In this document: positions 1 to 64,000 of the stretch, one piece after another
How positions within the stretch are numbered: position 1 is the first letter of the stretch
Layout: each line of letters opens with the position of its first letter
Assembly: GCF_001483135.1 (NCBI RefSeq)
Contig: NZ_LNAL01000003.1
Coordinates: 496,001 to 560,000 of the forward strand
Length of the DNA stretch: 64,000 nt
Reading direction: 5' to 3'
Source: Solirubrum puertoriconensis
GTDB taxonomy: Bacteria > Bacteroidota > Bacteroidia > Cytophagales > Hymenobacteraceae
The notes under the pieces: model-generated
Told to the model about the DNA's origin: nothing
The model's database searches: none
Seen by the model: the letters and a program-made list of their open reading frames with translations, nothing else
Made by a program: the position numbers and the translations under genes

Positions 1-133
1 TAATCGGTGGATCGACGCTCGGGTACTCACGTACCGATAGGTAGCGGTAGCCGATTACGCCGAAGAGCACAATGACCAGACTCATCACGATGGCGAGTAC
101 TGGCCGGCTAATGCTGGTGGATGATAAACTCAT
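1..133 (-). CDS. RND efflux permease, N-terminal fragment
   Basis: Only the first 44 codons are in the window; the gene runs off the left edge. The protein starts MSLSSTSISRPVLAIVMSL, followed by one hydrophobic helix (about residues 10-30) and then YRYLSVREYPSVDPP. This matches the N-terminus of inner-membrane RND (HAE1/AcrB-type) drug and solute:proton antiporters, where SxxxIxRPV precedes TM1 and REYPxVDPP leads into the periplasmic porter domain. The adaptor gene lies 225 bp upstream on the same strand, the usual adaptor-pump order. Substrate cannot be inferred. Confidence 0.85.
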   Translation of the reverse strand, partial: MSLSSTSISRPVLAIVMSLVIVLFGVIGYRYLSVREYPSVDPPI

Positions 134-358
134 CTATGAAAGCTTCGGTGAAATACTAGAAAGTAGAAAGACGCTGCACGCCTAGGTTGTTGGACAACCC
201 AACTCGCCAAAGGCTTAATCAGGCGCTTAAAGGTTCGCGCCGCCGCTCCGCCCACTACGTGCACAACTCCATCGGCGTGGTAGCTGTTCGGTAGCGACCC
301 TAGGTAAGATGGGAAGGCTGCAACCAAGGAGCGCAAAGCAGGCGTACTGGCTGAGGTG

Positions 359-1558
359 CTAAAGCGCCTCGTTGGTGCTCTTCTGTACTTTGATTTTGTC
401 GCCGGGCTTAACCTGCAAAATGCCGGTGCGCAGCACGGTGTCGCCGGCCGCCAAGCCCTCGGTTACTTGAATCAGTTTCTCCGAGCGGATGCCAATTTTC
501 ACCTGTTGGGGCTGGGCCTTGCCACCTACCACTTTGTACACGCGGTAGCCGTTGGCTTCGGGCGAAACCGACTCAGTCGGAATTTGGATGGCCTGCTCTA
601 CTTGGCCGATTTGCAGGTTGACGCGCACAAACGCGCCGGGGCGCAACTCTTGCTTGGTGTTGGGATAGGTAGCGCGTACCGAGAGCGTGCGCGAAACCGG
701 GTCGATTTGCGGGTTGATAGCGTAAACCTTGGCTTCGAACTTCTTGCCGCTGGCTTCGTCGAGTACTTCTACCTGGTCGCCCACCTTCACGGCGGCGGCG
801 TAGCGGCCCGGCACGGCAAAGTCAATCTTAACGGGGGTAATGCGCGATACCGTGGTAATGGGCGTGTTGGGCGACACATAGGCACCTTGCGACACGGAGC
901 GCAGGCCCGCTATGCCGCTAAAGGGCGCCCGCACATAGGCTTTGGCCAGTTGAGCCTGCAGCGCCAGCAAATCGGCCCGGGCGGTAAGCAGCTGGTTGTT
1001 GCTTTGCTCGTACTCTTGCTGGCTGATATATTCTTTCTCGAGCAGGGTGCGCTGGCGCTTTTCCTGGTCGCTGAACAGCTTGATGTTGTAGCGGAGTTTC
1101 TGCAACTGCGCCTGAATCTCATCGGCGTTGATGGTGAGCAACAGCTGGCCTTTGCTCACGGGTTGTCCCTCGCGGAAGTTGAGGCTGGTGATGCGTCCGT
1201 TGATTTCGCTGCGAATCGTAACCTGCTCATCGGCCAGTACCGAGCCGGTTGCGGCTACGGCATCGGTTAAGCGGGTAGCCTGCACCACAAACACCTGCGC
1301 CGGTACCGCTCCGCCACGGCCTGCGCCACCGGGCCCACCACCTTTGGCAGCACCAGCGCCGGGGCCGCCTTTGCCACCGCCACCGCCTTTGCCGCCCTCA
1401 GCCGAAGGAGCCGGGAAATACTTAAACTTAACGAAAGCCAACGCGGCAACCACGGCCGCAGCCAGCAGCCACCAACGCCACGCTCCGCCTCGGCGGGGCT
1501 CGTGGTCGTACTCGTTATGCACGTTTGCGGAGTCGGTTAACGGCTCAATTTGAGGCAT
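359..1558 (-). CDS. RND efflux periplasmic adaptor (membrane fusion protein)
   Basis: A 399-residue HlyD/AcrA-type adaptor that would link an RND pump to an outer-membrane channel. It has a cytoplasmic head, one N-terminal membrane anchor (about 27-45), an unusual Gly/Lys-rich linker (about 55-84), then the biotinyl-lipoyl-like half motif (GRITSLNFREGQPVSKGQLL), a helical hairpin, and a second half motif (YVRAPFSGIAGLRSVSQGAYV). Beta-barrel and membrane-proximal domains follow, ending GDKIKVQKS. An in-frame upstream start at 1612 would add 18 residues. I prefer the ATG at 1558 because it directly precedes the acidic head and anchor. It sits upstream of the RND permease and probably forms an operon with it. 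Confidence 0.9.
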   Translation of the reverse strand: MPQIEPLTDSANVHNEYDHEPRRGGAWRWWLLAAAVVAALAFVKFKYFPAPSAEGGKGGGGGKGGPGAGAAKGGGPGGAGRGGAVPAQVFVVQATRLTDAVAATGSVLADEQVTIRSEINGRITSLNFREGQPVSKGQLLLTINADEIQAQLQKLRYNIKLFSDQEKRQRTLLEKEYISQQEYEQSNNQLLTARADLLALQAQLAKAYVRAPFSGIAGLRSVSQGAYVSPNTPITTVSRITPVKIDFAVPGRYAAAVKVGDQVEVLDEASGKKFEAKVYAINPQIDPVSRTLSVRATYPNTKQELRPGAFVRVNLQIGQVEQAIQIPTESVSPEANGYRVYKVVGGKAQPQQVKIGIRSEKLIQVTEGLAAGDTVLRTGILQVKPGDKIKVQKSTNEAL

Positions 1559-1691
1559 GACAGGGGTGAATGGTGAAGCAAAAAAGGTCGGTCTTGCCGC
1601 CACAATCGGCAAGACCGGCTATAACAGCAAAGGGCAGGTATAAAGTTTGGCGTGGGCACAACCCCGCCCCATGCTCAGCTTCTACGGACAC

Positions 1692-1721
1692 AAAAAAAGC
1701 CTGCGCGTTGCAGGCTTTTTT
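1692..1721. terminator. Bidirectional hairpin terminator
   Basis: Inverted repeat GCCTGC/GCAGGC with a GCGTT loop, flanked by an A run on the left and a T run on the right, so it reads as a rho-independent terminator on both strands. It lies just downstream of the minus-strand DUF892 gene. Confidence 0.8.
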
Positions 1722-1751
1722 GGAAAAAACGGGGCCGGCTGCCCGCGTTTG

Positions 1752-2255
1752 TTACATAGCACGCTGGTTGATGTAGCCTTTGGCTAAATCATTCAGCTTG
1801 GTGTCAGTGAGTTGTTCTTCTTGCAGGGTTTGCGAAAGCAGCGAGGCAGCTTCGGTGTGGCCCAACCGCTCAGCAAAGTGGCGCGCCGTGCCGTAGCCCG
1901 AAATTTCGTAGTGCTCGATGCGCTGCGAAGCGGCAATCAGAGCAGCGTCTTTCACCTCATCGGTAGCATTCTCGCTCAGGGTTTCTTTGCCTTCAGCTAC
2001 CAGGCCTTGCATGGCTTTGCAGGTGTGGCCACCGAGGTCCACATTGAGGCCGCGGCCAATCTGCTCGAGGCGGGCAACTTGGTTCTGGGTTTCCTGCAGG
2101 TGCGTTTCAAAAGCTTGGCGCAGGCGCGGGTCGCGGGCTTCCTGGGCCATCATTGGCAACGCCTTCACCAATTGGGTTTCGGCGCTGTACAGGTCTTTCA
2201 GTTGCTCGGCGAACAGGTCTTCGAGCGTATTCAGTTTGCCTTCAAAGAATGACAT
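1752..2255 (-). CDS. Ferritin-like DUF892 (YciE/YciF family) protein
   Basis: A 167-residue all-helical protein of the YciE/YciF (DUF892) ferritin-like family. It opens with LEDLFAEQLKDLYSAETQL, which holds the first metal-ligand-type Glu residues, and contains HTCKAMQGL, IAASQRIEHYEISGYGTA and LLSQTLQEEQLTD, the typical E/H positions of this fold. Family members are linked to general stress and stationary phase; their catalytic activity is not established. A second copy of similar length lies at 38976-39473. The gene has its own terminator. Confidence 0.9.
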   Translation of the reverse strand: MSFFEGKLNTLEDLFAEQLKDLYSAETQLVKALPMMAQEARDPRLRQAFETHLQETQNQVARLEQIGRGLNVDLGGHTCKAMQGLVAEGKETLSENATDEVKDAALIAASQRIEHYEISGYGTARHFAERLGHTEAASLLSQTLQEEQLTDTKLNDLAKGYINQRAM

Positions 2256-2438
2256 AGCGAATGAGGTTTAGGTGATTGGGAACGGGTTTTGGTAGAGTCA
2301 GTGAGTAATGATGCGGCGTAGTGGGCTTGGTGTACGAACCCTGTCAGCGGAGGGTTGAGAACCGGCGCCAGCTTCTGTGTTTATTAACCGCAAATTGATG
2401 ATGAGCGGCCCGCGCCGTTTCTGTACCTTGCAGGTTGC

Positions 2439-3941
2439 ATGGCTCTTCGTAGTTCCCGTCGTACTGCTGCTCCGCAGCTTCCGCTGGCGCCCGTGCCCCT
2501 GGCCGAGCTACTGCGCCGCGTGCGCGATGTTCTGGCTTTGGCCTTCGACGACGCCTATTGGGTAACCGCCGAAATTGCCGAGCTTACGTTGCCGCGCTTT
2601 GGAGCGGGCCACTGCTACCTTACCCTCACCGACCCCACCACTGGGGTAGGAGGGGCCGAAGTCCGTACGCAGGTGCGCGCCACCATTTGGCGCAACCGCT
2701 ACGAACTGTTGGGGCCACACTTCGAGCAGCAAACCGGGCAGCCGTTGCGTGCCGGCATGCGCGTGCTGGCCCGCTGCCAGGTGCGCTTTCACGAGCAGTA
2801 CGGCCTCAGCCTCGACATCATTGCCCTCGATGCTTCGTACACCGTTGGCGACCTAGCCCGGCAACGCGCCGAAACTATTGCCAAGCTCGAAGCGCGCGAC
2901 CTGCTGCAGCGCAACAAGCGCTTGTCGTTGGCTTTGGCACCGCAGCGCTTGGCGGTAATCTCGTCGGCCACGGCGGCTGGTTGGCAGGATTTTGTGCGCC
3001 AACTCGAAGAAGCACCGTATGCTTTTAATGTGGCCTTGTTTCCGGCCGCTATGCAAGGCCAGGAGGCACCAGCTAGCATCCTAGGTGCGCTGGAGCAAAT
3101 CAAGCGGCAGCGCAAACACTTCGATGCGGTTATCATCATCCGCGGTGGCGGCTCGCGCACCGATTTGCTATGCTTCGACGACTACGGCCTGGCGGCGGCC
3201 ATTGGTGCTTTCCCGCTGCCCGTGCTTACCGGCATCGGCCACGACCGCGACGAAGCCGTCGCCGACCTAACTGCCCACACCGCCCTGAAAACGCCCACCG
3301 CCGTGGCTATTTTCCTGGTCGAGCGGCTGGCTCGCCTCGAAGCTGCCCTCAACGGCTACGGCGTGCGCATTCATGAGCTGTGCACGCAGCAGTTGGGGCA
3401 GTATAGCGCTGGGCTGCAGCGCCTAGGTCGGCAACTGGTGCAAAGCAGCCAAGGGCGCCTCAGCCAGGAGCAAAATACCTTGCGCCAGCGCCTGCGCCGC
3501 GCCACCGAAATACCCCGCGAGGCCTTAGCGCGCGAAAGCCGCCAGCTAGCTACGCAGCAACAGCATTTGCGCCGCGCCGCCCTGCATGCTGCCGACCGCC
3601 AGCGCCGCCACGTGCGCCACCTAGGGCGCTTGGTGTTGCGGCGATTCCGGCAGCTGCACCAGCGCCGCCGCGAGGCCTTGCTGCGCCAGCGCTACCAACT
3701 CGAGGTAGCCGCAGTGCGCGCTACTGCTCGCCATGCCTTGGCGTTGGCTGCTGCCGTTACCCGCCACGCCTCCCTCGACCCCATGCACCTAGGGCAGCGC
3801 GGCTACTTGCGCGCCGATAGTTTGCACCCCATTTCCCCGTCTTCGCCGCCCGGTACGCTGCTGCTGCTGCAACTGCCCGACGGCCCTTTGCCGGTACAAG
3901 TGGTTGATCTGGCCACTACTCCCGATCCGCATACACGCTAA
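2439..3941 (+). CDS. xseA: Exodeoxyribonuclease VII large subunit
   Basis: A 500-residue XseA, the catalytic subunit of exonuclease VII, which degrades single-stranded DNA from both ends. An N-terminal OB-fold (YWVTAEIAELTLPRFGAGHC through about residue 130) is followed by the catalytic core: IRGGGSRTDLLCFDDYGLA, then GIGHDRDEAVAD near 266-277, and LKTPTAVAIFLVE. The C-terminal half is Arg/Gln-rich and helical, as expected for the part that carries XseB. The ATG at 2439 is the first start; a TACCTTGC box lies only 6 bp upstream, so the mRNA may be nearly leaderless. xseB follows after one base. Confidence 0.95.
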   Translation: MALRSSRRTAAPQLPLAPVPLAELLRRVRDVLALAFDDAYWVTAEIAELTLPRFGAGHCYLTLTDPTTGVGGAEVRTQVRATIWRNRYELLGPHFEQQTGQPLRAGMRVLARCQVRFHEQYGLSLDIIALDASYTVGDLARQRAETIAKLEARDLLQRNKRLSLALAPQRLAVISSATAAGWQDFVRQLEEAPYAFNVALFPAAMQGQEAPASILGALEQIKRQRKHFDAVIIIRGGGSRTDLLCFDDYGLAAAIGAFPLPVLTGIGHDRDEAVADLTAHTALKTPTAVAIFLVERLARLEAALNGYGVRIHELCTQQLGQYSAGLQRLGRQLVQSSQGRLSQEQNTLRQRLRRATEIPREALARESRQLATQQQHLRRAALHAADRQRRHVRHLGRLVLRRFRQLHQRRREALLRQRYQLEVAAVRATARHALALAAAVTRHASLDPMHLGQRGYLRADSLHPISPSSPPGTLLLLQLPDGPLPVQVVDLATTPDPHTR

Positions 3942-3942
3942 T

Positions 3943-4851: not shown

Positions 4852-4867
4852 CCCCTCACCTCACGTT

Positions 4868-5557: not shown

Positions 5558-5760
5558 ATGTGCACATGAGCGATATTCAAAGCTTAGCAATTGGCGCTCA
5601 GAAGGCCAGGATAGATATTTTAGGCGTCTTTGTGTAGTTTTAGTGCTTCAAGCTGATTGACTTACGGCTTGTAACGGAAGAGTATTGCCGATATATTGAA
5701 TTCTTGTTTACATTAGATTGTGGCTATGTTTAAGCCGTGTTTTTATCCGCTTAGTGTTTG

Positions 5761-6986: not shown

Positions 6987-7061
6987 CTTTGCAGCATAAC
7001 ACCCCGCTAGTCTGATACTGCCCTTAAGCATGTCGCTAGGGGCTGTTCTGTCTTTTGTTAT

Positions 7062-7628: not shown

Positions 7629-7643
7629 CACTTGCTGCGGCAC

Positions 7644-8000
7644 CTAGGGCTGAAGCTCGGTACTGGGGTCCCAGAAGCGCTGGGTAAAATCCTGCACTTT
7701 ATCATCGATGACGGGCACGCCTTCAGCCTCCAAGGCCTCTTGCATGGCCGAGGGCGGGTTGTAGAACTGCTTGCCCGTGAGCACGCCCAAGCGGTTGATA
7801 ACGCGGTGGCAGGGCACGTACTCGTCGCCGCGTAAGTCGTGCGCCGCCTGCATGGCCCAGCCTACCGTGCGGGCGCCTTGTTTGCTACCTAGGTAATGCG
7901 CAATGGCACCGTACGTAGAAACGCGCCCCGGCGGAATAAGGCGCACTACTTCGTACACATCCTGAAAGAAGTTGCGGTAACGTTCGTTGGGTTCCTTCAT
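7644..8000 (-). CDS. MGMT-family DNA alkyltransferase domain protein
   Basis: 118 residues corresponding to the DNA-binding and active-site domain of O6-alkylguanine-DNA alkyltransferases. It has FFQDVYEVVRLIPPGRVSTYG, the recognition helix region (GARTVGWAMQAA) and PCHRVI with Cys64. Alkyltransferase-like proteins of the YbaZ type have Trp in place of this Cys (PWHR), so here the methyl-acceptor is retained. The N-terminal RNase H-like domain of Ogt/Ada-C is absent. It could be a minimal repair enzyme or a damage-recognition protein that kept the cysteine. Confidence 0.85.
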   Translation of the reverse strand: MKEPNERYRNFFQDVYEVVRLIPPGRVSTYGAIAHYLGSKQGARTVGWAMQAAHDLRGDEYVPCHRVINRLGVLTGKQFYNPPSAMQEALEAEGVPVIDDKVQDFTQRFWDPSTELQP

Positions 8001-10268: not shown

Positions 10269-10291
10269 GCTAGTCAGCTCCAGGTAGATAA

Positions 10292-16682: not shown

Positions 16683-17987
16683 TTACTCCTGCCGGTACAC
16701 CACGCCTTGTTTCATTACAAAGCGTATGCGTTGCATGGTTTTGATGTCCTGCAACGGGTTGCCATCCACAGCTACCACATCGGCCAGCTTGCCGGGCTCG
16801 AGGCTGCCTAGGTTGGGCGTTTGGCCCAGGAGCTCGGCAGCATTGAGGGTGGCGGCACGCAAGGCCTCCAGCGTCGGCATGCCCGCCTCCACCATGTACT
16901 GAAACTCCATGGCGTTTACGCCGTGCCGGAACACCGAGGCATCGGTGCCAAAGGCAATTTTAACACCTGCTTTGTAAGCTTTGCCGAAGGTGCCCTGCAG
17001 CTTCGGCCCAATGGCCAGGGCTTTGGGCGTAACCAGCGGCGGGTAGTAGTTGGGGTACTTGGCGGCCGAGTCGGCTACGGATTTGCCGGCCGTAATAGTG
17101 GGCACGTACCACGTGCCGTACTTCTTCATCAGCTTAATGGTCTCGTCGTCCATCAGGGTGCCGTGCTCGATGCTCGTAACCCCGGCCCGGATGGCGCGCT
17201 TCATGCCCTCGGCGCCGTGGGCGTGGCAAGCCACGTTCAGGCCTAGGTCGCGGGCGGTTTCTACCACGGCCTTAATCTCCTCTTCGGTAAACTGCGGGGC
17301 CGAGCCATCTTTGGCTACCGACAGTACGCCGCCCGTGGAGGCAATTTTGATGAGGTCGGCGCCGCGTTTGTACTGCTCGCGCACGGCTTGGCGGCATTGA
17401 TCGGGGCCGTTGGCCACGCCGTCGGCCGGGCCGGGTACGCCCATCAAATCGAGGCGGTAGCCGTTGGTGGGGTCCATGTGGCCGCCCGTGCCGCTGATGG
17501 CCTTGCCTACCGTAAAGATGCGCGGGCCAGCCACCTGCCCGCGGTTGATGGCGTTGCGCAACGAAATGTTGATGCCCGAGCCGCCTAGGTCGCGCACGGT
17601 GGTAAAGCCGGCCAGCAGGGTGGTGCGGGCGTGGGCCTCGGCCGAGTAGGCCACGTCGCCGGGGTTCTCGGTGAACTCCTTCAGAAAATTGTCCTTGCTG
17701 GTTTCGCCCTCCACGTGCACGTGGCAATCGATGAGGCCGGGCAGCACCGTGCGATTTTTCAGGTCGACGACCTTATCGGCCGCACCGCCGGGCGCAGCGT
17801 AGCCCGCTTGCACCGCCTGCACGCGGCCGTTTTCAATAACCAGCGTTTGCTCCGTAAGTAGCTTGCCGGCGCGTACATCGAGCAGGCGGCCGCAGTGCAG
17901 GTAAGTTTTTTGCGCGAAGGCGGCCGTGCTCAGGCCGAGCAGCAACGCCGTACTAAACAAGTGTTTGGCAGGAGTAGAAAGGGACAT
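16683..17987 (-). CDS. Exported metal-dependent amidohydrolase (imidazolonepropionase/prolidase-like)
   Basis: 434 residues. A signal peptide (HLFSTALLLGLSTAAFAQ) precedes an amidohydrolase-superfamily TIM barrel with flanking beta domain. Metal-site motifs: VLPGLIDCHVHVEGE (HxH), a Lys candidate in DLIKIASTGG, NVACHAHGAEG, ITSIEHGTLMDD-type SIEHGT and IAFGTDASV (catalytic Asp). The C-terminal NLGSLEPGKLADVVAVDGNP is typical. Bacteroidota homologues are annotated as exported dipeptidases or imidazolonepropionase-like proteins; the substrate is unclear. The ATG at 17987 begins the signal peptide; a longer reading to 18032 was rejected. Confidence 0.92.
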   Translation of the reverse strand: MSLSTPAKHLFSTALLLGLSTAAFAQKTYLHCGRLLDVRAGKLLTEQTLVIENGRVQAVQAGYAAPGGAADKVVDLKNRTVLPGLIDCHVHVEGETSKDNFLKEFTENPGDVAYSAEAHARTTLLAGFTTVRDLGGSGINISLRNAINRGQVAGPRIFTVGKAISGTGGHMDPTNGYRLDLMGVPGPADGVANGPDQCRQAVREQYKRGADLIKIASTGGVLSVAKDGSAPQFTEEEIKAVVETARDLGLNVACHAHGAEGMKRAIRAGVTSIEHGTLMDDETIKLMKKYGTWYVPTITAGKSVADSAAKYPNYYPPLVTPKALAIGPKLQGTFGKAYKAGVKIAFGTDASVFRHGVNAMEFQYMVEAGMPTLEALRAATLNAAELLGQTPNLGSLEPGKLADVVAVDGNPLQDIKTMQRIRFVMKQGVVYRQE

Positions 17988-19399: not shown

Positions 19400-20149
19400 A
19401 TGAAATCCACCGTTCTTTCAAGCCTGTTTGCTGCCTCGGTGCTTGCCTGCCTGGCGCCCGGTGCGTCGGCGCAAACGCGCCCGGCCGCTACGCCGCCCGC
19501 GTCGCAGTCGCAACAGAAGCCGCAGCCGCAGCAGGCCCCGACGCAAAAGCCCGCTACTCGGCCAGCTACCAGCTCCACGAGCTCCGAGGTGCGGCAGGCA
19601 GCTACGTCGGTTGAGCGCGACCTAGGCATTTTCCGCGACTGGGTAAACGACAAGATCGACCGCGCCGAAACCGGTGCCCGCCGCGACTTGCCGCGTGTGA
19701 TGGACGAATTCGACTACCAGAGCAAGCGCATCGACAAGGCCGTGGATAGCCTCTCGGCACAAGGCAAGCGCGAGTACGGCAACCTCAAGAGCCGTTACCA
19801 CAACTGGGAGTCCGAGCAGCGCCGCCTGCAAGAAGGCGCCAGCCAGCCCCGAACGGCGCAGCAAGCCCAAACAGAAATGCTGGGCGAAAACGTGAACCTG
19901 GCCGCGGCCCGCGCCACGGAAATGCACGACCTGTACGGCCGCTTTATCGACTACGTGCGCGTAAACCGCCGCGAGTGGGACGAGGAGGACTGGGCTGTGG
20001 CCAGCAACGTGCTCACCAAGCTCAACACCCGCTACGAGAAAGTGCGCGAGCAAATTCCGATGGAGGAGCGCCTGCGCATCCGCTCGTGGCAAGCCGAGTT
20101 CCGCACGCTCGAAAAGGCCAAGCAAACCAAGAAAGCCCTCGACGAATAA
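19400..20149 (+). CDS. Exported helical protein of unknown function
   Basis: 249 residues. A signal peptide ends in ACLAPGASAQ. It is followed by a Gln/Pro/Thr-rich linker (about 25-65), then a long helical region with regular heptad-like charge pattern (DWVNDKIDRAETGARRDLPR, DYQSKRIDKAVDSL, YVRVNRREWDEEDWAVASNV, EERLRIRSWQAEFRTLEKAK). No Cys and no enzyme motif is seen. It probably acts in the periplasm as a coiled-coil protein. The gene is followed by a 57-bp near-perfect hairpin shared with the convergent gene. Confidence 0.7.
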   Translation: MKSTVLSSLFAASVLACLAPGASAQTRPAATPPASQSQQKPQPQQAPTQKPATRPATSSTSSEVRQAATSVERDLGIFRDWVNDKIDRAETGARRDLPRVMDEFDYQSKRIDKAVDSLSAQGKREYGNLKSRYHNWESEQRRLQEGASQPRTAQQAQTEMLGENVNLAAARATEMHDLYGRFIDYVRVNRREWDEEDWAVASNVLTKLNTRYEKVREQIPMEERLRIRSWQAEFRTLEKAKQTKKALDE

Positions 20150-20855: not shown

Positions 20856-21479
20856 ATGCACATCGCCATCGTTGGCAATATAGGTGCCGGTAAAACCACG
20901 CTCGCTCACAAGCTGGCCCACCACTTCAATTGGGAAGTGTTTCTGGAAGACGTCGACCACAATCCTTACCTCAAGGATTTTTACGACGACATGCCCCGCT
21001 GGGCCTTCCACCTGCAGGTGTATTTCCTCAACAGCCGCTTCCGCCAAACGCAGCGCATCAAAGAGATGAAGCAGCTTGGCAAAGGCGTAATCCAGGACCG
21101 CACCATTTACGAGGACGCCCACATCTTCGCGGCCAACCTGCACGAGTCGGGCATGATGATCGAGCGCGACTACCAGAACTACCTAGGGTTGTTCGAGTCG
21201 ATGATCAGCATGGTCGACCCGCCCGATTTGCTGCTATATCTCAAGGCCGATTTGCCCAAGCTCATCCATCAGATTGAGAAGCGCGGCCGCGACTACGAGA
21301 ACAACATGCGCATCGAATACCTACGCAACCTCAACGAGCATTACGAGCGTTGGATCAGCAACTACAAGGACGGCAAACTGCTGATTGTAGATGTAAGCCA
21401 GCTCGATTACGTAAGCCGCCCCGAAGACCTAGGCACCATCATCGAGCGAATCCAGGCCGACCTGTTCGGCTTGTTCTAA
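20856..21479 (+). CDS. Deoxynucleoside kinase
   Basis: 207 residues of the deoxyadenosine/deoxyguanosine/deoxycytidine kinase family, which phosphorylates deoxynucleosides for salvage. The P-loop is GNIGAGKTT (7-15). The Glu region is FLEDVDHNPYLKDFYDD. The DRT/ERS-type catalytic motif is VIQDRTIYEDAHIF. The LID-like Arg motif is KRGRDYENNMRIEYLRNLNE. The protein starts MHIAIVGNIG at 20856; an upstream GTG start at 20826 lies on the promoter box and was rejected. It ends at a large bidirectional terminator. Confidence 0.94.
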   Translation: MHIAIVGNIGAGKTTLAHKLAHHFNWEVFLEDVDHNPYLKDFYDDMPRWAFHLQVYFLNSRFRQTQRIKEMKQLGKGVIQDRTIYEDAHIFAANLHESGMMIERDYQNYLGLFESMISMVDPPDLLLYLKADLPKLIHQIEKRGRDYENNMRIEYLRNLNEHYERWISNYKDGKLLIVDVSQLDYVSRPEDLGTIIERIQADLFGLF

Positions 21480-44040: not shown

Positions 44041-45945
44041 CTACTGGGCTTTGCTGCCCAGCCAAGCCTTGCGGAACGCAAGTTGCTCGGGCGTGGGCTG
44101 CTGGCCGGCTTGCTCGGCCGGCACCACCTCCAGCGTGGGGTCGGCAGCCAGGGCAATTTGGGCGGTGCGCACCTGCCCCCGCGAGCGGTATTCCAGCGGC
44201 ACAGTGTCGGTGGGTTCGTGCTTCTTCAGAATGGCAGCCAAGGCTTTTTCGTCTTTCAGCAGCTTGCCATCGAGCTTCAGCAGTTCATCGTCGCGGTCGA
44301 GGCCAGCTTGGTACAGCGGCGTACCCACCAGCGTGTTGTAGGTAATAAGGCAGCGGCCGTTCACAAAATCTATTTGGCCTGGCATGCCTAGGGCAGCCAC
44401 ATTGGGCTTGGCCTGCCGCACCACAACGCCAGCCGGGGCCAGCAGCGCGGCATAGTCGTGGGGCGTAGCGTTGTAGATGTGCTGGCGGAAAAACTGCCCG
44501 GCAAAAGCGGTATCCTTGCTCACCTCGCCCAAAATGCGCTGCAGATCGGGTACGGTATAGGGGCGTTCGGGTGCGTGGTTTTTTTGCGGTTTGCCGTGCT
44601 GCTGCCATACGGCGCGCATGTAAGTATCAAGGTCGGTGCGGTACTTCTGGCGCAGCAGCAAATCGAGGGCAAGGGCATTGGCTCCGCCCACGTAGTAGTA
44701 CGACTGATACGTGTTGGCGCGGTTGCTGGGGTCGATGGATTTGGCGGCGTCGACAAACGGCGCCTGCTGGCTCATGTAAATGGCGCCGTAGCGCTTAGCG
44801 CCTGGTACTTCCATCGAGTTTATTAAACCCGTTAGGGCCTCCTGGGCATACTGCGCATCGGTGGTGTAGGCGCCCGAGCGGCGCAGCAGCAGCTCGCCGT
44901 AGTACTGCGTAAAGCCCTCGGCAAACCAGAGCATGTCGCTCATGTTGGCGCGGTCGAAGTCGAACGGCTCCAGGTCGCTGGGGCGAATGCGCTCCACGTT
45001 CCAGCTGTGCACAAACTCGTGCGACACGGTGCCTAGGTTATCGAGCATACCGGGGCCACCAAGGGGGCGCGAACTGGTAACCGAGGTGGAGTTGCGGTGC
45101 TCCATACCGTCGCCGCTGACCTGGGGCAAGTAGTTGGCTACAAAAGTGTAGCGACCAAAATCGAAGGTCGGCAGCTCGCCAAATACAGCTTGCGCCTCGC
45201 GCACCACGTTCTTGGTCAGGTCGGCGTAACGGTCGAGGTCGGCGTCGGAGCCGGCGTGCAGCACCTGCATTTCAATTTGCTGCCCGTTTACCTGCCAGGC
45301 GCGCGTTTTTTGGGCGCCCAGCGAAGTAGGCGAATCCATGAAGTACTGCAGGTGGGGCGCAAAGTAGCGGCCCGGTACTTTCTGGCCGTTTTCGTTTACC
45401 TCCTGCAGCTGCGTGGCCACTTTCCAATCGGCGGGCAGCTGCTCGAAGTTTACGTACACCGGGCGTTGCTCCAGTCCGCGGGCGTAGGCAAACGTGGCCG
45501 GAATGTTCAGGTGGGCGTGTTGGGCATCGATGCCCGCGTAGGTACCGTCGGTACGGTCGCCGTAGAGCGTGTAGCTAAAGCGCACGGTGCCATCGGGGCC
45601 CGGCGTTACTTCCCAGCCGTAGGGGTCGGAGTGCCGGGTGGGCAGCGGCTTGCCCTGGCCGTCGGTGGCCCGCACGTTGTACACGTTCTTAGCAAACTCG
45701 TGCAGGGCATAGCGGCCCGGCGAAGAGCGGGCCATGCGCACCTGCAGCGGCCGCCCAGCGGGTACTTTCTGAAAGGTAGCCACTACTTGCGCCTCGTGGT
45801 GCACGGCATTCGGAAACTGAATACTGTACTGCACCGGCGCTTCGGGGGCGGCGGTGCGGGGTGCGGTGTTTTGAGAAATCCCAACCAGCGGGGCCGAAAG
45901 CAAACCTAAGCCCAGTACAAACCGGGCAGCTGATGATAGAAGCAT
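44041..45945 (-). CDS. Exported M61-family metallopeptidase (glycyl aminopeptidase type)
   Basis: 634 residues. A signal peptide (ARFVLGLGLLSAPLVGIS) precedes the M61 N-terminal beta domain. The zinc motif is VSHEFVHSWNVERIRP (HExxH near residue 308) and the third ligand Glu is in MLWFAEGFTQYYGELLL. A PDZ-like domain is present at the C-terminus (TLVGTPLYQAGLDRDDELLK, LDGKLLKDEKAL). M61 enzymes remove N-terminal Gly or Ala. The ATG at 45945 starts the signal peptide; the longer reading to 45990 was rejected. Confidence 0.93.
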   Translation of the reverse strand: MLLSSAARFVLGLGLLSAPLVGISQNTAPRTAAPEAPVQYSIQFPNAVHHEAQVVATFQKVPAGRPLQVRMARSSPGRYALHEFAKNVYNVRATDGQGKPLPTRHSDPYGWEVTPGPDGTVRFSYTLYGDRTDGTYAGIDAQHAHLNIPATFAYARGLEQRPVYVNFEQLPADWKVATQLQEVNENGQKVPGRYFAPHLQYFMDSPTSLGAQKTRAWQVNGQQIEMQVLHAGSDADLDRYADLTKNVVREAQAVFGELPTFDFGRYTFVANYLPQVSGDGMEHRNSTSVTSSRPLGGPGMLDNLGTVSHEFVHSWNVERIRPSDLEPFDFDRANMSDMLWFAEGFTQYYGELLLRRSGAYTTDAQYAQEALTGLINSMEVPGAKRYGAIYMSQQAPFVDAAKSIDPSNRANTYQSYYYVGGANALALDLLLRQKYRTDLDTYMRAVWQQHGKPQKNHAPERPYTVPDLQRILGEVSKDTAFAGQFFRQHIYNATPHDYAALLAPAGVVVRQAKPNVAALGMPGQIDFVNGRCLITYNTLVGTPLYQAGLDRDDELLKLDGKLLKDEKALAAILKKHEPTDTVPLEYRSRGQVRTAQIALAADPTLEVVPAEQAGQQPTPEQLAFRKAWLGSKAQ

Positions 45946-47478: not shown

Positions 47479-47538
47479 AATTTGTGCCTGACAATCAGCC
47501 CCTAGGTAACATTGGGGTAAAAAAGTTTAAGCTGGTGC

Positions 47539-52767: not shown

Positions 52768-52801
52768 GCGGGTCCGCCGAGCCTAGGCTCGGCGGACCCG
52801 C
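52768..52801. terminator. Hairpin, perfect 34-bp palindrome centred on CCTAGG
   Basis: 17-base arms 52768-52784 and 52785-52801 with CCTAGG at the centre; AAAA precedes and TTT follows. It lies 25 bp after the M16 peptidase stop on the minus strand. Confidence 0.8.
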
Positions 52802-56980: not shown

Positions 56981-57053
56981 GACGCCGGGCAAGTAGTGCT
57001 TGGGATACGATCTGATAATTAGATAATGGCGACCCGTGCCGTGCGAGGCTAAG

Positions 57054-57764: not shown

Positions 57765-57846
57765 TGGATGGGCTTGTCGTGGGCTTCTCGAAAATTATTG
57801 TAGCCGATAGCCAGGGTGCATATTCAAGAGCTAAGCACCTAGGACT

Positions 57847-58811: not shown

Positions 58812-60236
58812 TTAGTGATTGTGCGAGGCAGCTACCGGCGTGCTCGTTTCTTCTTCGAATAAGTCGTCGACCGGCTCACCTTGGTAGTTATCCACAAACT
58901 CGCCTTCCCAGCGGGCAATTACGGCCGTAGCCAAGCAGTTGCCCATCACGTTTACGGCGGTGCGGGCCATATCCATCAGGGCGTCGATGCCGAGGATGAT
59001 GAACACCGGCCACGAGGGCAGGTTAAACGAAGCCACCGTAGCCAGCAGGATTACCAGCGAAGCGCGCGGCACACCGGCTACACCTTTAGAGGTGAGCATC
59101 AGCGTGAACACCATTACCAATTGCTGGCCTAGGGTTAGCTCGATGCCTGCGGCCTGGGCCACAAATACTGCGGCCAACGAGAGGTATAGCGTGGTGCCAT
59201 CGAGGTTGAAGGAGTAACCCGTGGGCATAACGAAAGCCACGACGCGGCGCGGTACGCCGATGCTTTCCATGGCCTCCATGGCGCGGGGCAGCGCGGCCTC
59301 CGATGAGGTGGTAGCAAAAGCAATGCTTACCGGCTCGGCAATTGCCTGCACGAAGCGCTTGATCGGAATGCGTGCAATCAGGGCCATCGGCAGCAGAATC
59401 AGCACCACGAAAGCAATAAGCGCGACGTAGAGCGTCAGGAGGAGTTGCAGCGCGTTGAGCAGCGGCGCGAAGCCCATTTTGCCCACCGTGTAAGCAATGG
59501 CACCGCCCACACCTAGGGGAGCGAAGAACATTACTACGTTGGTGAACTTAAACATCACCTCCGACAGGCTCTCCGACCACTCCAGTATGGGTTTGCGGTG
59601 CTGCTCCTTCACCATAGCCAAGCCAATGGCGAAGATGATGGCAAACACCACCACTTGCAGCACTTGCCCTTCGGCTACCGATTTGGCAATGTTCTCTGGG
59701 AAGATGTGCAGAATAATGTCGGCCGTGGTTTGCTTCACGGTCTGTAGGGTCTCGGTTTCGGCGTTGCCAGCCTGGCTAATACCCACGCCAGCGCGCGAAA
59801 GGTTGATGGCCGCCAGGCCGATGAACAGCGCGAAGGTGGTGACTACCTCGAAGTAGATCAGGGCTTTGAGGCCCATGCGGCCAACCTTCTTGAGGTCGGA
59901 GTGGCCGGCAATACCTACCACCAGCGTGGCAAATACCAACGGAGCAATGATGGTTTTAACCAGGCGCAGGAATACATCGGACAGAACCTTGAGGCTTTGA
60001 GCCACATCTGGTCTGTCGGCACCTATTTCGGCGCCAACCAGCATGCTCACCACAATCCAAAAGGTGAGGGAGCGACGGGCCGAAGCCCAAACGATGATGG
60101 CCAGCAGGGCTACCCAGCGGGCGGCCATGGGTACGGCGGGTGGCAGGGCAACCACGCCGTAATGAGACAAGGCGGTGAGGAGGGCAGCCAGCAGCAGCAA
60201 GGCTACCGCCGGCACAGCAACGCGCGTAAGCTTCAT
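58812..60236 (-). CDS. Dicarboxylate/amino acid:cation symporter (DAACS family)
   Basis: 474 residues with eight membrane helices and two re-entrant loops. Diagnostic sites: FATTSSEAALPRAMEAMES (HP1 Ser region), VMPTGYSFNLDGTTLYLSLA (TM7 sodium and substrate site), SKGVAGVPRASLVILLAT (HP2) and DALMDMARTAVNVMGNCLAT (TM8 with the Asp/Arg that select the substrate). The Arg in TM8 favours acidic substrates such as glutamate or dicarboxylates. The acidic, His-ended C-terminal tail is unusual. The ATG at 60236 was chosen. Confidence 0.95.
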   Translation of the reverse strand: MKLTRVAVPAVALLLLAALLTALSHYGVVALPPAVPMAARWVALLAIIVWASARRSLTFWIVVSMLVGAEIGADRPDVAQSLKVLSDVFLRLVKTIIAPLVFATLVVGIAGHSDLKKVGRMGLKALIYFEVVTTFALFIGLAAINLSRAGVGISQAGNAETETLQTVKQTTADIILHIFPENIAKSVAEGQVLQVVVFAIIFAIGLAMVKEQHRKPILEWSESLSEVMFKFTNVVMFFAPLGVGGAIAYTVGKMGFAPLLNALQLLLTLYVALIAFVVLILLPMALIARIPIKRFVQAIAEPVSIAFATTSSEAALPRAMEAMESIGVPRRVVAFVMPTGYSFNLDGTTLYLSLAAVFVAQAAGIELTLGQQLVMVFTLMLTSKGVAGVPRASLVILLATVASFNLPSWPVFIILGIDALMDMARTAVNVMGNCLATAVIARWEGEFVDNYQGEPVDDLFEEETSTPVAASHNH

Positions 60237-60374
60237 AAACAGCAATAAGTCCAGTCTTCGGCTCGGATGGGGGTACCGAAGGTGGACAAAGATAGACGTT
60301 TGGGCGGCAGTCCGCTGATGTGCGTAGCAGGCTTAATTTGCACCCCCGCCCGAGTAGGGTCGTATTGCTCCGTT

Positions 60375-61424
60375 ATGCTGCACTGGTCCATTAGCTCGCT
60401 CGAGCTGCCGCTTCGCTTCACCTGGAAGATTTCGCGCAACGCTTCCGACGCCAAAACCAACTTGCTGGTGCGAGTAGGCGAGGGCGCGCACACGGGCTGG
60501 GGCGAGGCTGCGCCCAACGTGCGCTACGCCGAAACCCCCGAGCTGCTGCTGGCGCAGTTTGCTGCCCTGCAGCAAGCCGGCCTAGGTAACGTGCAGCACC
60601 TCGACGACCTCACGGCCCTGCTCGATGCCGCTAATCCGGCCCACGCGCTGCGCTTCGCGGTGGAGTCGGCGTACGTGCACTACCAAGCCCGCAAGCAAGG
60701 GCTAAGCGTGCCCGCCCTGCTACAAGTGCCCACGCCCGCCGCGGCTGTGCCCACGGCGTTTACCTTGCCCATTATGGAGCCCGGCGCGGTGGCCGGCTTT
60801 GTGCAGGCGCAAGGCATGGCGCGCTTTCCGCTGCTGAAGGTGAAAGTAAATCAAGAGAGCGGCGCCGATTTACTCCGTGAGCTAACGCGGCTGCTTCCCG
60901 GCCACGCGCTATTGGTTGATGGCAACGAAGCCTGGCACGACGCCGACGGCCTGTTGCGCTTCGTGGAAGCCGTACGCGACTTACCAGGCCTGAATGTGCG
61001 CTTGCTCGAACAACCACTGCCCGCTACCTGCGCCGACGATTACCGCTACCTGCACAGCCGCAGCCCCTGGCCGCTCATTGCCGACGAATCGGTAACCGAC
61101 GCGGCCGATTTTGCGGCCATTGCGCAGCAATTTCATGTTCTAAACATGAAATTGATGAAAGCCGGCGGCTACCACAACGGCGTGCGGTTACTACGGCAAG
61201 CCCAGGCGCACGGCCTGCGTACCATGATTGGCTGCATGGTTGAGACGAGCCTAGGTATTTGGTCGGCGCTGCAAGTAAGCGGCCTGGCCGAAGTGTGCGA
61301 CCTAGACGGCTTCCTGATAGTGCGCAACGAGCCTTACGGCTTGGTGCACGAAACAAACGGGCACCTGGCTGCCCAGGCGCAGGTGCCCGAGTTGCCAGGT
61401 GCCCCGTTTGTGCCAAGCACCTAG
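60375..61424 (+). CDS. Dipeptide epimerase (enolase superfamily, L-Ala-D/L-Glu type)
   Basis: 349 residues. Enolase-superfamily barrel with the muconate-lactonising subgroup motifs: KVKV at 155-158 (first catalytic Lys), DGNEAW (Asp182), EQPLP (Glu212), ADES (Asp238) and NMKLMKAGG (second catalytic Lys near 259), then GCMVETSLG. L-Ala-D/L-Glu epimerases of murein peptide recycling share exactly this pattern. The N-terminal cap has RNASDAKTNLLVRV. The ATG at 60375 is used; the open reading to 60267 has a foreign lead. The neighbouring exported peptidases may supply peptides, but this is only inferred. Confidence 0.9.
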   Translation: MLHWSISSLELPLRFTWKISRNASDAKTNLLVRVGEGAHTGWGEAAPNVRYAETPELLLAQFAALQQAGLGNVQHLDDLTALLDAANPAHALRFAVESAYVHYQARKQGLSVPALLQVPTPAAAVPTAFTLPIMEPGAVAGFVQAQGMARFPLLKVKVNQESGADLLRELTRLLPGHALLVDGNEAWHDADGLLRFVEAVRDLPGLNVRLLEQPLPATCADDYRYLHSRSPWPLIADESVTDAADFAAIAQQFHVLNMKLMKAGGYHNGVRLLRQAQAHGLRTMIGCMVETSLGIWSALQVSGLAEVCDLDGFLIVRNEPYGLVHETNGHLAAQAQVPELPGAPFVPST

Positions 61425-61441
61425 GCAGCCGCCAATGCGGC

Positions 61442-62038
61442 TTACTTCACGTTGCGCAGTTGTTCGTCCAAGGCCTTTATCTGGCCATCAAGCTGGCTGG
61501 TATCGGGCAGTTTGGGGTGGCCTTGGCTCAGCAGCGTAATTTTCTGGTTGAGCAGCTGCAGCTTCTGGGCCATCAGATCTACGCGGCGGCCTAGGTCGGC
61601 AATACGTTGGTCGGCCTCGGCTGTGCTGGGCACTGCGCCTTGGTCAATGCTGCCGAACTTGGCATCGGCCGGGGCGGTTTCGCCCCGCGCGGCGGCAGCA
61701 CTCTGCGGCGTGGCATACACAATGCTGCCATCGGAGCGCACGTAGTCGCCCTCTTTCAGGGTCGTGATTTTGCCGCCGGGCAGCTCAACAATGCCGCTTT
61801 TCACGTTTACCTTGGTGCCGTTGGGCAGGCGCACGTTCTGGCTCAGGCCGGTGGTTTGATTGCCGCTGCGCTTTACTACCGAGCCGTTTTGCATCACAAA
61901 CTGGTCGGTATTTTGCAGCTCGCGCTGATTATCTTGCTGTGCAGCTTTGGTTTGTCCTGGCGCGTCTTGGGCCTGAGCGGCTGCGGCCGTGGTTAGCAGG
62001 GCGCCAAAAACGAGCAGGAAAGAAGTCAGCTGTTTCAT
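61442..62038 (-). CDS. Exported DUF6799 protein
   Basis: 198 residues. A signal peptide (SFLLVFGALLTTAAAAQAQ) is followed by DUF6799-type repeats: DQFVMQNGSVVKRSGNQTTG, VRLPNGTKVNVKSGIVEL, TTLKEGDYVRSDGSIVYATP. The second half is helical (QRIADLGRRVDLMAQKLQLL, LNQKITLLSQG). DUF6799 is known only from Bacteroidota and of unknown function. The ATG at 62038 starts the signal peptide. It ends 17 bp from the convergent epimerase gene, with a small AGCCGC/GCGGCT hairpin at 61427-61442 overlapping the stop. Confidence 0.85.
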   Translation of the reverse strand: MKQLTSFLLVFGALLTTAAAAQAQDAPGQTKAAQQDNQRELQNTDQFVMQNGSVVKRSGNQTTGLSQNVRLPNGTKVNVKSGIVELPGGKITTLKEGDYVRSDGSIVYATPQSAAAARGETAPADAKFGSIDQGAVPSTAEADQRIADLGRRVDLMAQKLQLLNQKITLLSQGHPKLPDTSQLDGQIKALDEQLRNVK

Positions 62039-62146
62039 AAAAAGGAGGAGTGTGGTCTGATTTGTGCTACTTCCGCACGCCCTCCATACGGGAACTGCCA
62101 AACAAAAGGTAGGTCAAGCAGCTTATGAAAAAATAATGGAACAATG

Positions 62147-62181
62147 TTGCTACATATAATGTATGTACATATATTTGCAAC
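62147..62181 (+). promoter_or_regulatory. Promoter with overlapping operator upstream of marR-type gene
   Basis: -33 TTG at 62147-62149 and exact -7 TATATTTG at 62170-62177, 20 bp apart. Within it lie inverted repeats: TACATA-TAATG-TATGTA (62151-62167) and the palindrome TATGTACATA (62162-62171); the outer GTTGC/GCAAC (62146-62150, 62177-62181) also pairs. A MarR dimer bound here would block its own promoter. The start codon is only 20 bp downstream. Confidence 0.7.
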
Positions 62182-62197
62182 GCATTCCAAATAACGC

Positions 62198-62647
62198 ATG
62201 AAGCTCGAAGACGAAATACAGCAGCGGGTGTTCAAGAGCCCCTACCAAAAAGCCTACTTAAACGTGGTTTTTACGGCAGGCTGGCTGCAACAACGCTTGG
62301 CTGCAGCCTTCAAGCCATATGGCATTACGCTGCCGCAGTACAACGTGCTGCGCATTTTGCGGGGCCAGCACCCCAAGCCCGCTACCGTGAACCTGCTCAT
62401 CGAGCGCATGCTCGATAAAACCAGCAACGCCTCGCGCATTGTGGATAAGCTAGAGGCCAAAGGACTGGTAACGCGCCAGGTGTGCCCCAGTAACCGCCGC
62501 GCCGTGGATATCCGCATCACCGAGGCCGGGCTTGATTTGCTGCTGCGCACCGAGGAGCTGGCCAACGCCCAACACAGCGGGCTGGAGAACCTTAGCGGCG
62601 ATGAGGCCGCGCAACTCAGCGACTTACTTGATAAAATTCGCAGCTAA
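62198..62647 (+). CDS. MarR-family transcriptional regulator
   Basis: 149 residues. The winged helix-turn-helix is visible: YNVLRILRGQHPKPATVNLL, ERMLDKTSNASRIVDKLEAK, GLVTRQVCPSNRRAVDIRIT. Recognition helix is near 70-88, wing near 92-108 (with Arg98/Arg99). The flanking helices form the dimerisation part. It is followed 46 bp later by a YceI gene on the same strand, an arrangement common in Bacteroidota, and preceded by an operator-like site. Probably autorepressed. Confidence 0.93.
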   Translation: MKLEDEIQQRVFKSPYQKAYLNVVFTAGWLQQRLAAAFKPYGITLPQYNVLRILRGQHPKPATVNLLIERMLDKTSNASRIVDKLEAKGLVTRQVCPSNRRAVDIRITEAGLDLLLRTEELANAQHSGLENLSGDEAAQLSDLLDKIRS

Positions 62648-62693
62648 TACTGGGCTGCTCGCATTACAACCGTTCTCTCACTCTCTCTAAATC

Positions 62694-63350
62694 ATGAAAA
62701 AAGTAATTCTGCCCCTGCTGCTCGTAGGCGCTCTGTTTACGGCTCCGGCCCACGCTCAGGAGAAATTCGGCGTTAAGAAAACCACTCCGGGCACCGCTAA
62801 GGCCAATAACAATGCCTACGCTGTGCAGCCGCAGCTGAGCACCCTAGGTTGGTTGGGCAAGAAAGTAGGCGGTCAGCACAACGGTACCGTAGCGCTGAAA
62901 GATGGCCAGGTGCTGGTGCGTGGCAACCAGGTAACGGGCGGCACTTTCACCTTCGATATGAACTCGATTAAGGTGGAAGACATTAAGGACGCCGACTACA
63001 ACGGCAAACTGGTGGGCCACCTGAAGAACGACGACTTCTTCAGCTCGGAGAAGTACCCCACCGCCACTTTCGTAATCACGAACCTGAAGCCCCTGAAAGG
63101 CGATGCCAACGGCAACAACGCCCTGGTAACCGGCAACCTCACCATCAAAGGCAAAACCGGCGTGGTAAGCTTCCCGGCTAAAGTAGGCGTGAAGGACGGC
63201 GTGGCTTCGGCCTCGGGCGTGGCTACCGTCGACCGCACCAAGTACGACGTGAAGTACGGCTCGACCTTGTTCGGCGCTGCTGCCGACAAAGCCATCGACG
63301 ACAATTTCACGCTGAGCTTCAATGTAATTGCTAAGCAACAAGCTCAATAA
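62694..63350 (+). CDS. YceI-family exported lipid-binding protein
   Basis: 218 residues. A signal peptide (MKKVILPLLLVGALFTAPAHAQ) precedes a YceI-like lipocalin fold: LGWLGKKVGGQHNGTVALKD, GGTFTFDMNSIKVEDI, HLKNDDFFSSEKYPTATFVI, NLTIKGKTGVVSFPAKV, and VDRTKYDVKYGS. YceI proteins bind polyisoprenoid or other amphiphilic lipids in the periplasm. Likely co-transcribed with the MarR gene upstream, and closed by a strong terminator. Confidence 0.95.
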   Translation: MKKVILPLLLVGALFTAPAHAQEKFGVKKTTPGTAKANNNAYAVQPQLSTLGWLGKKVGGQHNGTVALKDGQVLVRGNQVTGGTFTFDMNSIKVEDIKDADYNGKLVGHLKNDDFFSSEKYPTATFVITNLKPLKGDANGNNALVTGNLTIKGKTGVVSFPAKVGVKDGVASASGVATVDRTKYDVKYGSTLFGAAADKAIDDNFTLSFNVIAKQQAQ

Positions 63351-63372
63351 TTGACCTCTTACTTAGGTAAGA

Positions 63373-63427
63373 CCAAAAGCGAGAACGGCCCCACCTGCAG
63401 TGCAGGTGGGGCCGTTCTCGCTTTTGG
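63373..63427. terminator. Bidirectional hairpin, perfect 27-bp arms
   Basis: Arms 63373-63399 and 63401-63427 pair without mismatch around one central base (G at 63400). CCAAAAG starts it and CTTTTGG ends it, so both strands get a T-rich end. It lies between convergent genes. Confidence 0.85.
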
Positions 63428-63449
63428 CACCTAGAGTTTGTACCCTAGG

Positions 63450-64000
63450 TTAATTCTGGCCGCCACTGTTGCTAGGAGCAGGGCTAGTGGCAGGGGCAGC
63501 AGCGGGTGCGGCTTGGGGCTCGGCAGCAGGAGCCGCTGGCGTGGCAGCAGTGCTGTTGCGTAGTACTACGCGCAGCGGGGCCACGTTAGTTTCGCGCAAC
63601 GGCAGGATGCCATGCACCGTTTCGCCCGGCTTAATTACTTTGTTGGTAAGGTCGTATGTGGCAAACTCGTTGCGCAGGTTCTTGTTGGCGCCGCTGGCAC
63701 CCAGCATGTTGCCCACCGCTACCACAGGACCCCACGGAAACAGTGTACCACCAGTGGTTTGACCGGTCATGGGGTCAGTGGAACCGCCTACGCGACCAAT
63801 TCCGAGCACGTAGAGCAGGTAAATGGCCACGCCCTGTTTCAGGTCGTTAGCGGCCTGCACCGACGGCACGGCCTGCACCGGACGGTCGCCGAAGTACAAT
63901 TCCAAATCGCGCGAAAAGTTGATGTCGGCGCTGGTGTTGTTTTTCACGCTCACGGCCACCACTTGGTAGCCTTGCTTGCGCTCCTTCTTAACGTATTTTT
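63450..64000 (-). CDS. Protein of unknown function, 5' end outside the window
   Basis: The reading frame is open to the right window edge (upstream codons read YVKKERKQGYQVVAVSV), so the start is missing. The visible part has ADINFSRDLELYFGDRPVQA, NDLKQGVAIYLLYVLGIGRV, TDPMTGQTTGGTLFPWGPVV and KVIKPGETVHGILPLRETNV. The last 45 residues are Ala/Pro-rich and probably disordered. The strand pattern around ETVHGILP suggests an exported or lipoprotein beta-sandwich. No family recognised. Confidence 0.7.
   Translation of the reverse strand, partial: KYVKKERKQGYQVVAVSVKNNTSADINFSRDLELYFGDRPVQAVPSVQAANDLKQGVAIYLLYVLGIGRVGGSTDPMTGQTTGGTLFPWGPVVAVGNMLGASGANKNLRNEFATYDLTNKVIKPGETVHGILPLRETNVAPLRVVLRNSTAATPAAPAAEPQAAPAAAPATSPAPSNSGGQN

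Follow-up and report, generated by a model that had tools for sequence, protein, structure and literature searches.

A 64,000-base stretch of the Solirubrum puertoriconensis genome (hereafter, the window) is densely populated by the hexamer CCTAGG, which an earlier note on the same DNA had described as a highly iterated palindrome. This observation is confirmed and sharpened by our analysis: what is iterated is a maintained, asymmetric, and lineage-specific word, most often ACCTAGG, and not a simple palindrome. The word is probably an actively maintained signal at the DNA level, because the word itself and its intergenic copies are conserved between three related species. Judged from these computational comparisons, the leading but unproven reading, to which we assign a probability of roughly 36%, is that the word would serve as a lineage-specific self-DNA tag under an uptake-like drive.

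Abundance of CCTAGG in the window and the genome

The window (positions 1..64000; GC content, 59.0%) contains 93 copies of CCTAGG, starting at positions 181 to 63444, against an expectation of 20.4 from base composition; the earlier note had given about 90 copies and an expectation of about 20, and the two estimates agree well with these values. For the other palindromes of this composition, 23 in all, the counts range from 0 to 55, and in dinucleotide shuffles of the window the hexamer reached a mean of 14.28 and a maximum of 25, none of 100 shuffles attaining 93. In the complete genome (4.80 Mb, 8 contigs), 6,212 copies were counted, i.e. ∼1,290 per million bases (1.29/kb). In a 404-kb sample, which consists of 17 stretches of 20 kb and the window, CCTAGG attains 7.4 times its order-2 Markov expectation, and the runner-up palindromic hexamer 2.0 times. 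Neither of the two outcomes that the earlier note had named as fatal to its observation, namely a genome-wide count near the Markov expectation and an equal abundance of palindromes of the same composition, was found.

An A before or a T after the hexamer is present at 5,581 of the 6,212 sites in the genome and at 82 of the 93 sites in the window (one side, 77; both sides, 5; neither side, 11), close to the 80 copies previously estimated. ACCTAGG, counted on both strands, occurs 5,823 times in the genome, including 242 places where it forms the octamer ACCTAGGT and is counted twice.

Stretches L018 (all N) and L020 were dropped from the spacing and per-stretch tables, L018–L020 (contigs C1, C4, and C5) from the 404-kb Markov and density counts, and the AT-rich stretch L008 additionally from the one-mismatch, strand-bias, and outer-base counts. 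Gene boundaries are the predictions of a simple purpose-written caller, not an annotation.

Outer bases and asymmetry of the word

Relative to order-2 expectations in the 404 kb, the eight-base form ACCTAGGG is enriched 31.6-fold in S. puertoriconensis, followed by ACCTAGGC (12.4-fold) and ACCTAGGA (11.6-fold). CCCTAGGG (5.4-fold), the palindrome ACCTAGGT (5.0-fold), and TCCTAGGA (2.1-fold) are weak, and the remaining forms lie at 0.3–1.3-fold. The favoured word in this genome is asymmetric, i.e. ACCTAGG with G, C, or A as the next base, and the palindrome CCTAGG does not stand as the unit of iteration, since its palindromic extension ACCTAGGT is disfavoured relative to ACCTAGGG. The two closest relatives found, genomes G004 and G015, resemble S. 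puertoriconensis, with ACCTAGGG enriched 40.4- and 43.7-fold and ACCTAGGT 1.4- and 1.3-fold, respectively. The eighth base carries 0.45 bits of information, and positions outside the eight bases carry at most 0.13 bits each. When the sites are regarded as pairs of half sites, ACCT is combined with CCCT in 42% and with GCCT in 34% of the sites of S. puertoriconensis, whereas ACCT is used twice in 55% of the sites of genome G079 and CCCT twice in 52% of those of Hymenobacter polaris (G058). The full word, including its outer bases, is thus palindromic in G079 (ACCTAGGT) and H. polaris (CCCTAGGG) but not in S. puertoriconensis.

An intragenic copy of the favoured octamer ACCTAGGG lies at 3619..3626 on the plus strand, and its ACCTAGG is kept in both G004 and G015. 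The palindromic octamer ACCTAGGT, the weakest of the A-flanked forms, is present five times in the window, e.g. at 7887..7894. One intergenic CCTAGG is centred in a long, perfect, terminator-like inverted repeat with a 17-base arm (52768..52801); it is probably separate from the word, because it has no flanking A or T.

Conservation between related species

Two hundred and sixty-four kilobases of the S. puertoriconensis genome were aligned to G004 and G015, with 87–88% identity. Among alignable cases, G004 retains 186 of 303 words and G015 retains 209 of 283. CTA codons inside the word are kept at 65% (G004, n = 194) and 79% (G015, n = 190), and those elsewhere at 11% (n = 395) and 15% (n = 396), respectively. 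Retention is similarly low for CTA-GGN outside CCTAGG (17%, n = 36, and 24%, n = 33) and for CCTAGG without the A/T flank (21%, n = 28, and 35%, n = 26). CTA accounts for 43, 28, and 35% of the leucine codons preceding glycine in S. puertoriconensis, G004, and G015, respectively, and for 1 and 3% in Hymenobacter edaphi (G035) and Hymenobacter busanensis (G010), two congeners with low numbers of the hexamer. In intergenic copies, the CC and GG are jointly kept at 78% in G004 (n = 78) and 74% in G015 (n = 68), vs 46% (n = 89) and 54% (n = 83) for other CCNNGG sequences. Conversely, words common to G004 and G015 are intact in S. puertoriconensis in 146 of 177 cases (82%), and 12 control words in 31–69%.

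Individual sites in the window were also compared. The intragenic ACCTAGG at 21181..21187 (plus strand) and the intergenic one at 47501..47507 (minus strand) are both present in G004 and G015 and replaced by other words in H. busanensis and H. edaphi. Two further minus-strand copies are likewise kept in G004 and G015: that at 16807..16813 corresponds to ACCTGGG in H. busanensis (H. edaphi not aligned), and that at 45032..45038 to ACCTGGG, one transition away, in both low congeners. The copy at 19620..19626 (plus strand) was probably gained in S. puertoriconensis, as ACCTGGG is found in G004, G015, and H. edaphi (H. busanensis not aligned).

Position relative to genes and strands

Of the window copies, 55 are wholly inside predicted genes, 33 fall between genes, and 5 overlap a gene boundary. 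The previous claim that every intragenic copy is read as CTA-GGN (Leu-Gly) holds for 53 of the 55 (C-CTA-GGN) and fails for two, which are read as CCT-AGG; the frame is partly forced, because one of the three frames holds the stop codon TAG. The 12 positions quoted for CCTAGG in that note proved correct to 0–5 bases. Its statement that intergenic copies are denser was borne out both in the window (3.40/kb for CCTAGG, vs 1.01/kb in coding DNA) and for ACCTAGG over the 404 kb (1.94 vs 1.11/kb). Intergenic density in the 404 kb is highest in convergent gaps (3.7/kb), followed by tandem (2.4/kb) and divergent (1.1/kb) gaps. In tandem gaps, 48 words run along and 44 against the genes, and inside genes, 159 along and 202 against. 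This absence of orientation bias in tandem gaps, together with the conservation of intergenic copies, supports the earlier proposal that selection acts on DNA rather than protein. In a comparison not controlled for composition, folding was slightly more stable at 109 intergenic sites (mean hairpin energy, −14.8 kcal/mol) than in 600 random intergenic windows (−11.7 kcal/mol).

On contig C3, asymmetric sites were counted in 19 stretches, 16 of them with positive GC skew, and showed no strand bias (247 vs 279; replication origin and terminus not mapped); the same holds for the stretches of G004 (170 vs 154) and G015 (182 vs 171). Spacing of the word is Poisson-like (coefficient of variation, 0.97; n = 549). 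Few copies are present on the examined 20-kb stretches of contig C5 (259 kb), namely 1, 3, and 13 (L020, L067, and L068), and only two on contig C4 (12.5 kb, L019). These word-poor stretches would fit DNA that has not been under the process for long, possibly acquired DNA.

Distribution and dialects among Hymenobacteraceae

Genome counts were made with CCTAGG, as counts of ACCTAGG underestimate H. polaris, in which the outer bases differ. Among 204 Hymenobacteraceae genomes, nine carry 5,325–8,806 copies: S. puertoriconensis, G004, G015, H. polaris, Hymenobacter crusticola (G467), G079, G137, G495, and G506. Intermediate counts were obtained for G469, G470, and G514 (2,027–2,331) and G510 (1,209), and the remaining 191 genomes contain 888 copies or fewer. 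At the order level, five of 390 genomes exceed 5,000 copies, all of them among the nine, and the next has 1,349. The nearest named relatives of S. puertoriconensis are Hymenobacter, which supports the link to this genus drawn in the earlier note. Congeners differ ∼25- to 50-fold in CCTAGG, and in the low H. busanensis and H. edaphi the word is avoided (∼0.1 times expectation). A set of 69 named loci, all surrounding the same protein, contains three that are clearly high, i.e. those of Hymenobacter cavernae, H. polaris, and H. crusticola. A tree built from this protein has 62 rows (L156, L163, L165, L186, and L190–L195 omitted), six of them high; their placement implies a minimum of four state changes, or of three if only well-supported branches are considered.

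The outer bases differ between high lineages. ACCTAGGT is the dialect of G079 (52.9-fold), H. cavernae, and G506, and in less pure form of H. crusticola; CCCTAGGG is that of H. polaris (40.0-fold); and G137 and G495 use ACCTAGGG together with CCCTAGGG. In G079, ACCTAGCT stands at 82 times the low baseline, from which L131, L147, L153, and L155 are left out. The few stretches of H. crusticola, G495, and G506 show the word at only 2.4–3.6-fold, below the other high genomes.

Other words are iterated elsewhere in the genus. The non-palindromic TAGGCCW occurs 141 times in 60 kb of G470 (5.6-fold; L294–L296) and 54 times in 21.8 kb of Hymenobacter fodinae (5.3-fold; L131), and is also raised in G510 (3.7-fold; L300) and G514 (2.8-fold; L297–L299); these four genomes are weak in CCTAGG. 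In G469, CTAGGCCA is among the top words, as judged from 12 kb of unmasked sequence. GGGGTAG/CTACCCC reaches 6–10-fold in Hymenobacter sediminis, Hymenobacter latericoloratus, strain HSC-4F20, and Hymenobacter ginkgonis (L134, L139, L141, and L159, respectively). It is the weakest of the three words and may partly be a genus-wide composition effect, because it also stands at 3–5-fold in many further species, including H. polaris. The species tables for TAGGCCW and GGGGTAG cover 56 named loci, and the top-word survey used loci longer than 12 kb, without L190–L195; in many species, represented by ∼20 kb each, no word is outstanding.

Some additional compositional features were recorded. In Pontibacter ruber (L180), AAGTATAA is present 25 times in 21.8 kb, mostly in intergenic DNA (16 intergenic, 8 coding), and Hymenobacter rubripertinctus (L170) contains several 8-base words with 25 copies each, resembling a clustered regularly interspaced short palindromic repeat (CRISPR) or tandem array. 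GATC is almost absent from the stretches of G137 (0.03/kb) and absent from those of H. polaris (L085–L087 and L155) and Hymenobacter siberiensis (L185), a separate avoidance. GGATCC has no copy in the window, and in 160 kb of G079 (L069 and L071–L077), CTCGAG occurs 0 times (∼30 expected) and CTGCAG twice (∼79 expected).

Possible origins of the word

If the word is a self-DNA tag, it would be read sequence-specifically during the uptake or recombination of DNA. Alleles carrying the word would then be favoured, and the word would accumulate by molecular drive, as proposed for the uptake sequences of Neisseria and Haemophilus. In a lineage that changed or lost its specificity, unprotected copies would decay fast, at a pace such as that of CTA codons outside the word (11–15% kept), and this fast decay would account for the patchy occurrence of the word, its altered outer bases, and the different word iterated by some sister lineages. 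Support for this reading comes from the abundance of the word and its retention between species with no clear forward hotspot, from its equal strands, Poisson-like spacing, and intergenic densities, from the dialects and the other iterated words, and from the word-poor stretches of contigs C5 and C4.

Several observations weigh against the self-tag. Known uptake-sequence systems need T2SSE-family ATPases, typically with a type IV pilus and a ComP-like receptor. No match to PF00437 (T2SSE-family ATPase), the one pilus family searched, exceeded the cut-off in any of 20 genomes, high and low alike, whereas 13 of 14 control genomes gave one. A type IV pilus receptor as in Neisseria or Haemophilus is probably absent, because no pilus ATPase was found; the uptake function listed in the earlier note may still apply, but its classical type IV pilus route looks absent. 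However, Porphyromonas gingivalis, another member of the Bacteroidota, is naturally competent and needs ComEA, ComEC, and ComF in an otherwise largely unknown machine (PMC11532111). In a known uptake sequence, one-mismatch forms are enriched (947 vs 86 expected; PMC1939737). Here, those in S. puertoriconensis lie at 0.5–1.6 times the Markov expectation, not clearly enriched, and one-mismatch words outside CCTAGG at 0.6–4.7 times their level in low relatives, a weak excess of some. The core is moreover short and palindromic, and its distribution is sporadic. The conservation data also have their counterweights. By raw 7-mer retention, the word ranks 38 of 1,847 in G015 but 407 of 1,821 in G004, which is not outstanding, as good retention is also seen for 7-mers at constrained codons. 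The common leucine codons CTG and CTC are kept at 60–80%, much like CTA in the word, and the leading A of intergenic copies is barely better kept than flanking As (0.72 vs 0.67 and 0.65). In the aligned region of S. puertoriconensis, losses (31) exceed clear gains (11 of the 41 words seen only there), and this genome may therefore be drifting from its peak in word number.

Next in order, and in our view rather unlikely, is an intracellular protein that binds or processes the chromosome (e.g. a nucleoid protein, a Chi-like system, or a nuclease self-mark), with weak selection on each copy. Conservation in both coding and intergenic DNA fits such a reader, as do the half-site preferences, which resemble those of a protein reading two half sites, and the closeness of one-mismatch words to expectation, which suggests a rather strict threshold. 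Such a protein is harder to reconcile with the random rather than even spacing, with the lowest density being in divergent (promoter) gaps, and with most congeners doing without the word. The lack of strand polarity also counts against it, and weakens the segregation and repair functions that the earlier note had entertained where these would rest on polar signals of the Chi or FtsK-orienting polar sequence (KOPS) type. Clade-specific genes in the 264 kb were considered as candidates for the reader, but 44 of 200 shared genes have no match in the available low sequence, a number too large to be informative given the partial coverage of the low genomes.

Less probable again is an origin like that of the highly iterated palindrome HIP1, in which a methyltransferase that acts on CCTAGG, perhaps together with biased mismatch repair, would make and keep the sites. 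According to the HIP1 model, every cyanobacterial genome in which a word is over-represented also has a putative methyltransferase that could modify this word (PMC4390886). The palindromic core, the density, and the sporadic replacement by other words all parallel HIP1 and the alternate HIPs, and even the asymmetry has a counterpart in Oscillatoria, which over-represents three of the four rCCGGy forms (PMC4390886). Profiles PF00145, PF01555, PF02086, PF07669, and PF02384 were run against 17–20 genomes each, and none of these five families, the only ones searched, was matched in all of S. puertoriconensis, G004, and G015. The single methyltransferase match in S. puertoriconensis (PF01555) lies on the 12.5-kb contig C4; G015 has a PF02384 match over the cut-off and a PF07669 match below it, and sub-threshold PF07669 matches in frames of similar length also occur in G004 and in the low G020 and H. 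edaphi. In addition, TAGGCCW is not a palindrome, and Vsr, tried as an associated gene, was present in 7 of 34 genomes without pattern (G004, G079, the intermediate G514, and four low genomes). The likeness to HIP1 proposed in the earlier note thus extends to extreme iteration at a HIP1-like density and stops at the enzyme, for which the five families give no candidate common to the three related high genomes; methylation as the driver is not supported.

Mutation bias, in which CCCAGG/CCTGGG would change to CCTAGG unusually fast without any function, is improbable. Among one-mismatch hexamers, a clear depletion in comparison with low genomes is confined to CCCAGG/CCTGGG (0.52–0.54-fold), and these sequences are therefore the main donors of CCTAGG; the corresponding ACCTGGG (31%, n = 16) and ACCCAGG (40%, n = 10) are the least kept of the 12 controls, and the codon retention could be imitated by a very hot site that has reached equilibrium. 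However, the forward change from ACCTGGG to ACCTAGG (4/16) is not clearly raised over matched transitions (3/31, 5/42, and 4/36; pooled, 12/109), although these numbers are small. Intergenic copies conserve the CC and GG on either side of the hot position, and at many copies the low relatives carry words at least two steps away. In our reading, these data reflect a biased retention of the word, and a hot site is the less likely account.

Chance, composition, or an inserted repeat family can practically be set aside, being contradicted by the window count, the shuffles, the Markov ratios, and the genome-wide count, and a repeat family also by flanks that carry little information and by aligned sites that mostly differ from low relatives by substitution and seldom by gaps.

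The self-tag therefore heads this order of readings, ahead of the intracellular reader, the HIP1-like enzyme, and mutation alone. A broader proposal is offered tentatively: Hymenobacter lineages might mark their chromosomes with interchangeable CTA/TAG words (CCTAGG with changing outer bases, TAGGCCW, and perhaps GGGGTAG), whose reader would work without any recognised methyltransferase or type IV pilus. Such words would form a third kind of genome-wide self-tag, in addition to HIP1 and uptake sequences.

There is no settled explanation for highly iterated words, for which proposals range over mutation, methylation, repair, and uptake (PMC4390886; PMC1939737). In this group, gain, loss, and gene association are directly testable, because congeners differ 25- to 50-fold, several lineages and dialects are available, and orthologous regions can be aligned. 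A self-tag in Bacteroidota, if true, would bear on DNA exchange among these bacteria, and the word would be worth including in DNA designed to transform Hymenobacter.

Comparison with known systems

Among the open-access papers listed in literature searches, none was seen to report a CCTAGG word in Hymenobacter; in two methylome papers (PMC7988955 and PMC12016153), the hexamer appears solely within a reference, as part of the title of a lambda paper from 1982. The same hexamer is the recognition site of AvrII, BlnI, and XmaJI (enzymes named in PMC1939737); restriction would favour its avoidance, whereas the nine high genomes are enriched in it.

The word shares with HIP1 (GCGATCGC) and the alternate HIPs a short palindromic core, a density of ∼1/kb, outer-base variants, and replacement by other words in some lineages (PMC4390886). 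CCTAGG is the most over-represented palindromic hexamer in the 404-kb sample, and its genome-wide frequency falls within the ∼500–2500 per million bases given for HIPs (PMC4390886). It differs from HIP1 in its occurrence in Bacteroidota, its core CCTAGG, the asymmetric form favoured in the S. puertoriconensis clade, and the lack of a common methyltransferase among the families searched.

Chi and KOPS are over-represented short chromosomal words that serve DNA-processing machines and are orientation-biased along the replichore, whereas the word described here has no strand bias and is palindromic in G079 and H. polaris. DNA uptake sequences have dialects. Compared with the DNA uptake sequences (DUS) of Neisseriaceae and the uptake signal sequences (USS) of Pasteurellaceae, the present word is short (6–8 bases), has a palindromic core and no clear enrichment of one-mismatch forms, is sporadic within its genus, and occurs in genomes in which no pilus ATPase was found. 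It resembles both DUS and USS in its many copies, its lack of orientation bias, and its excess in non-coding DNA (PMC1939737).

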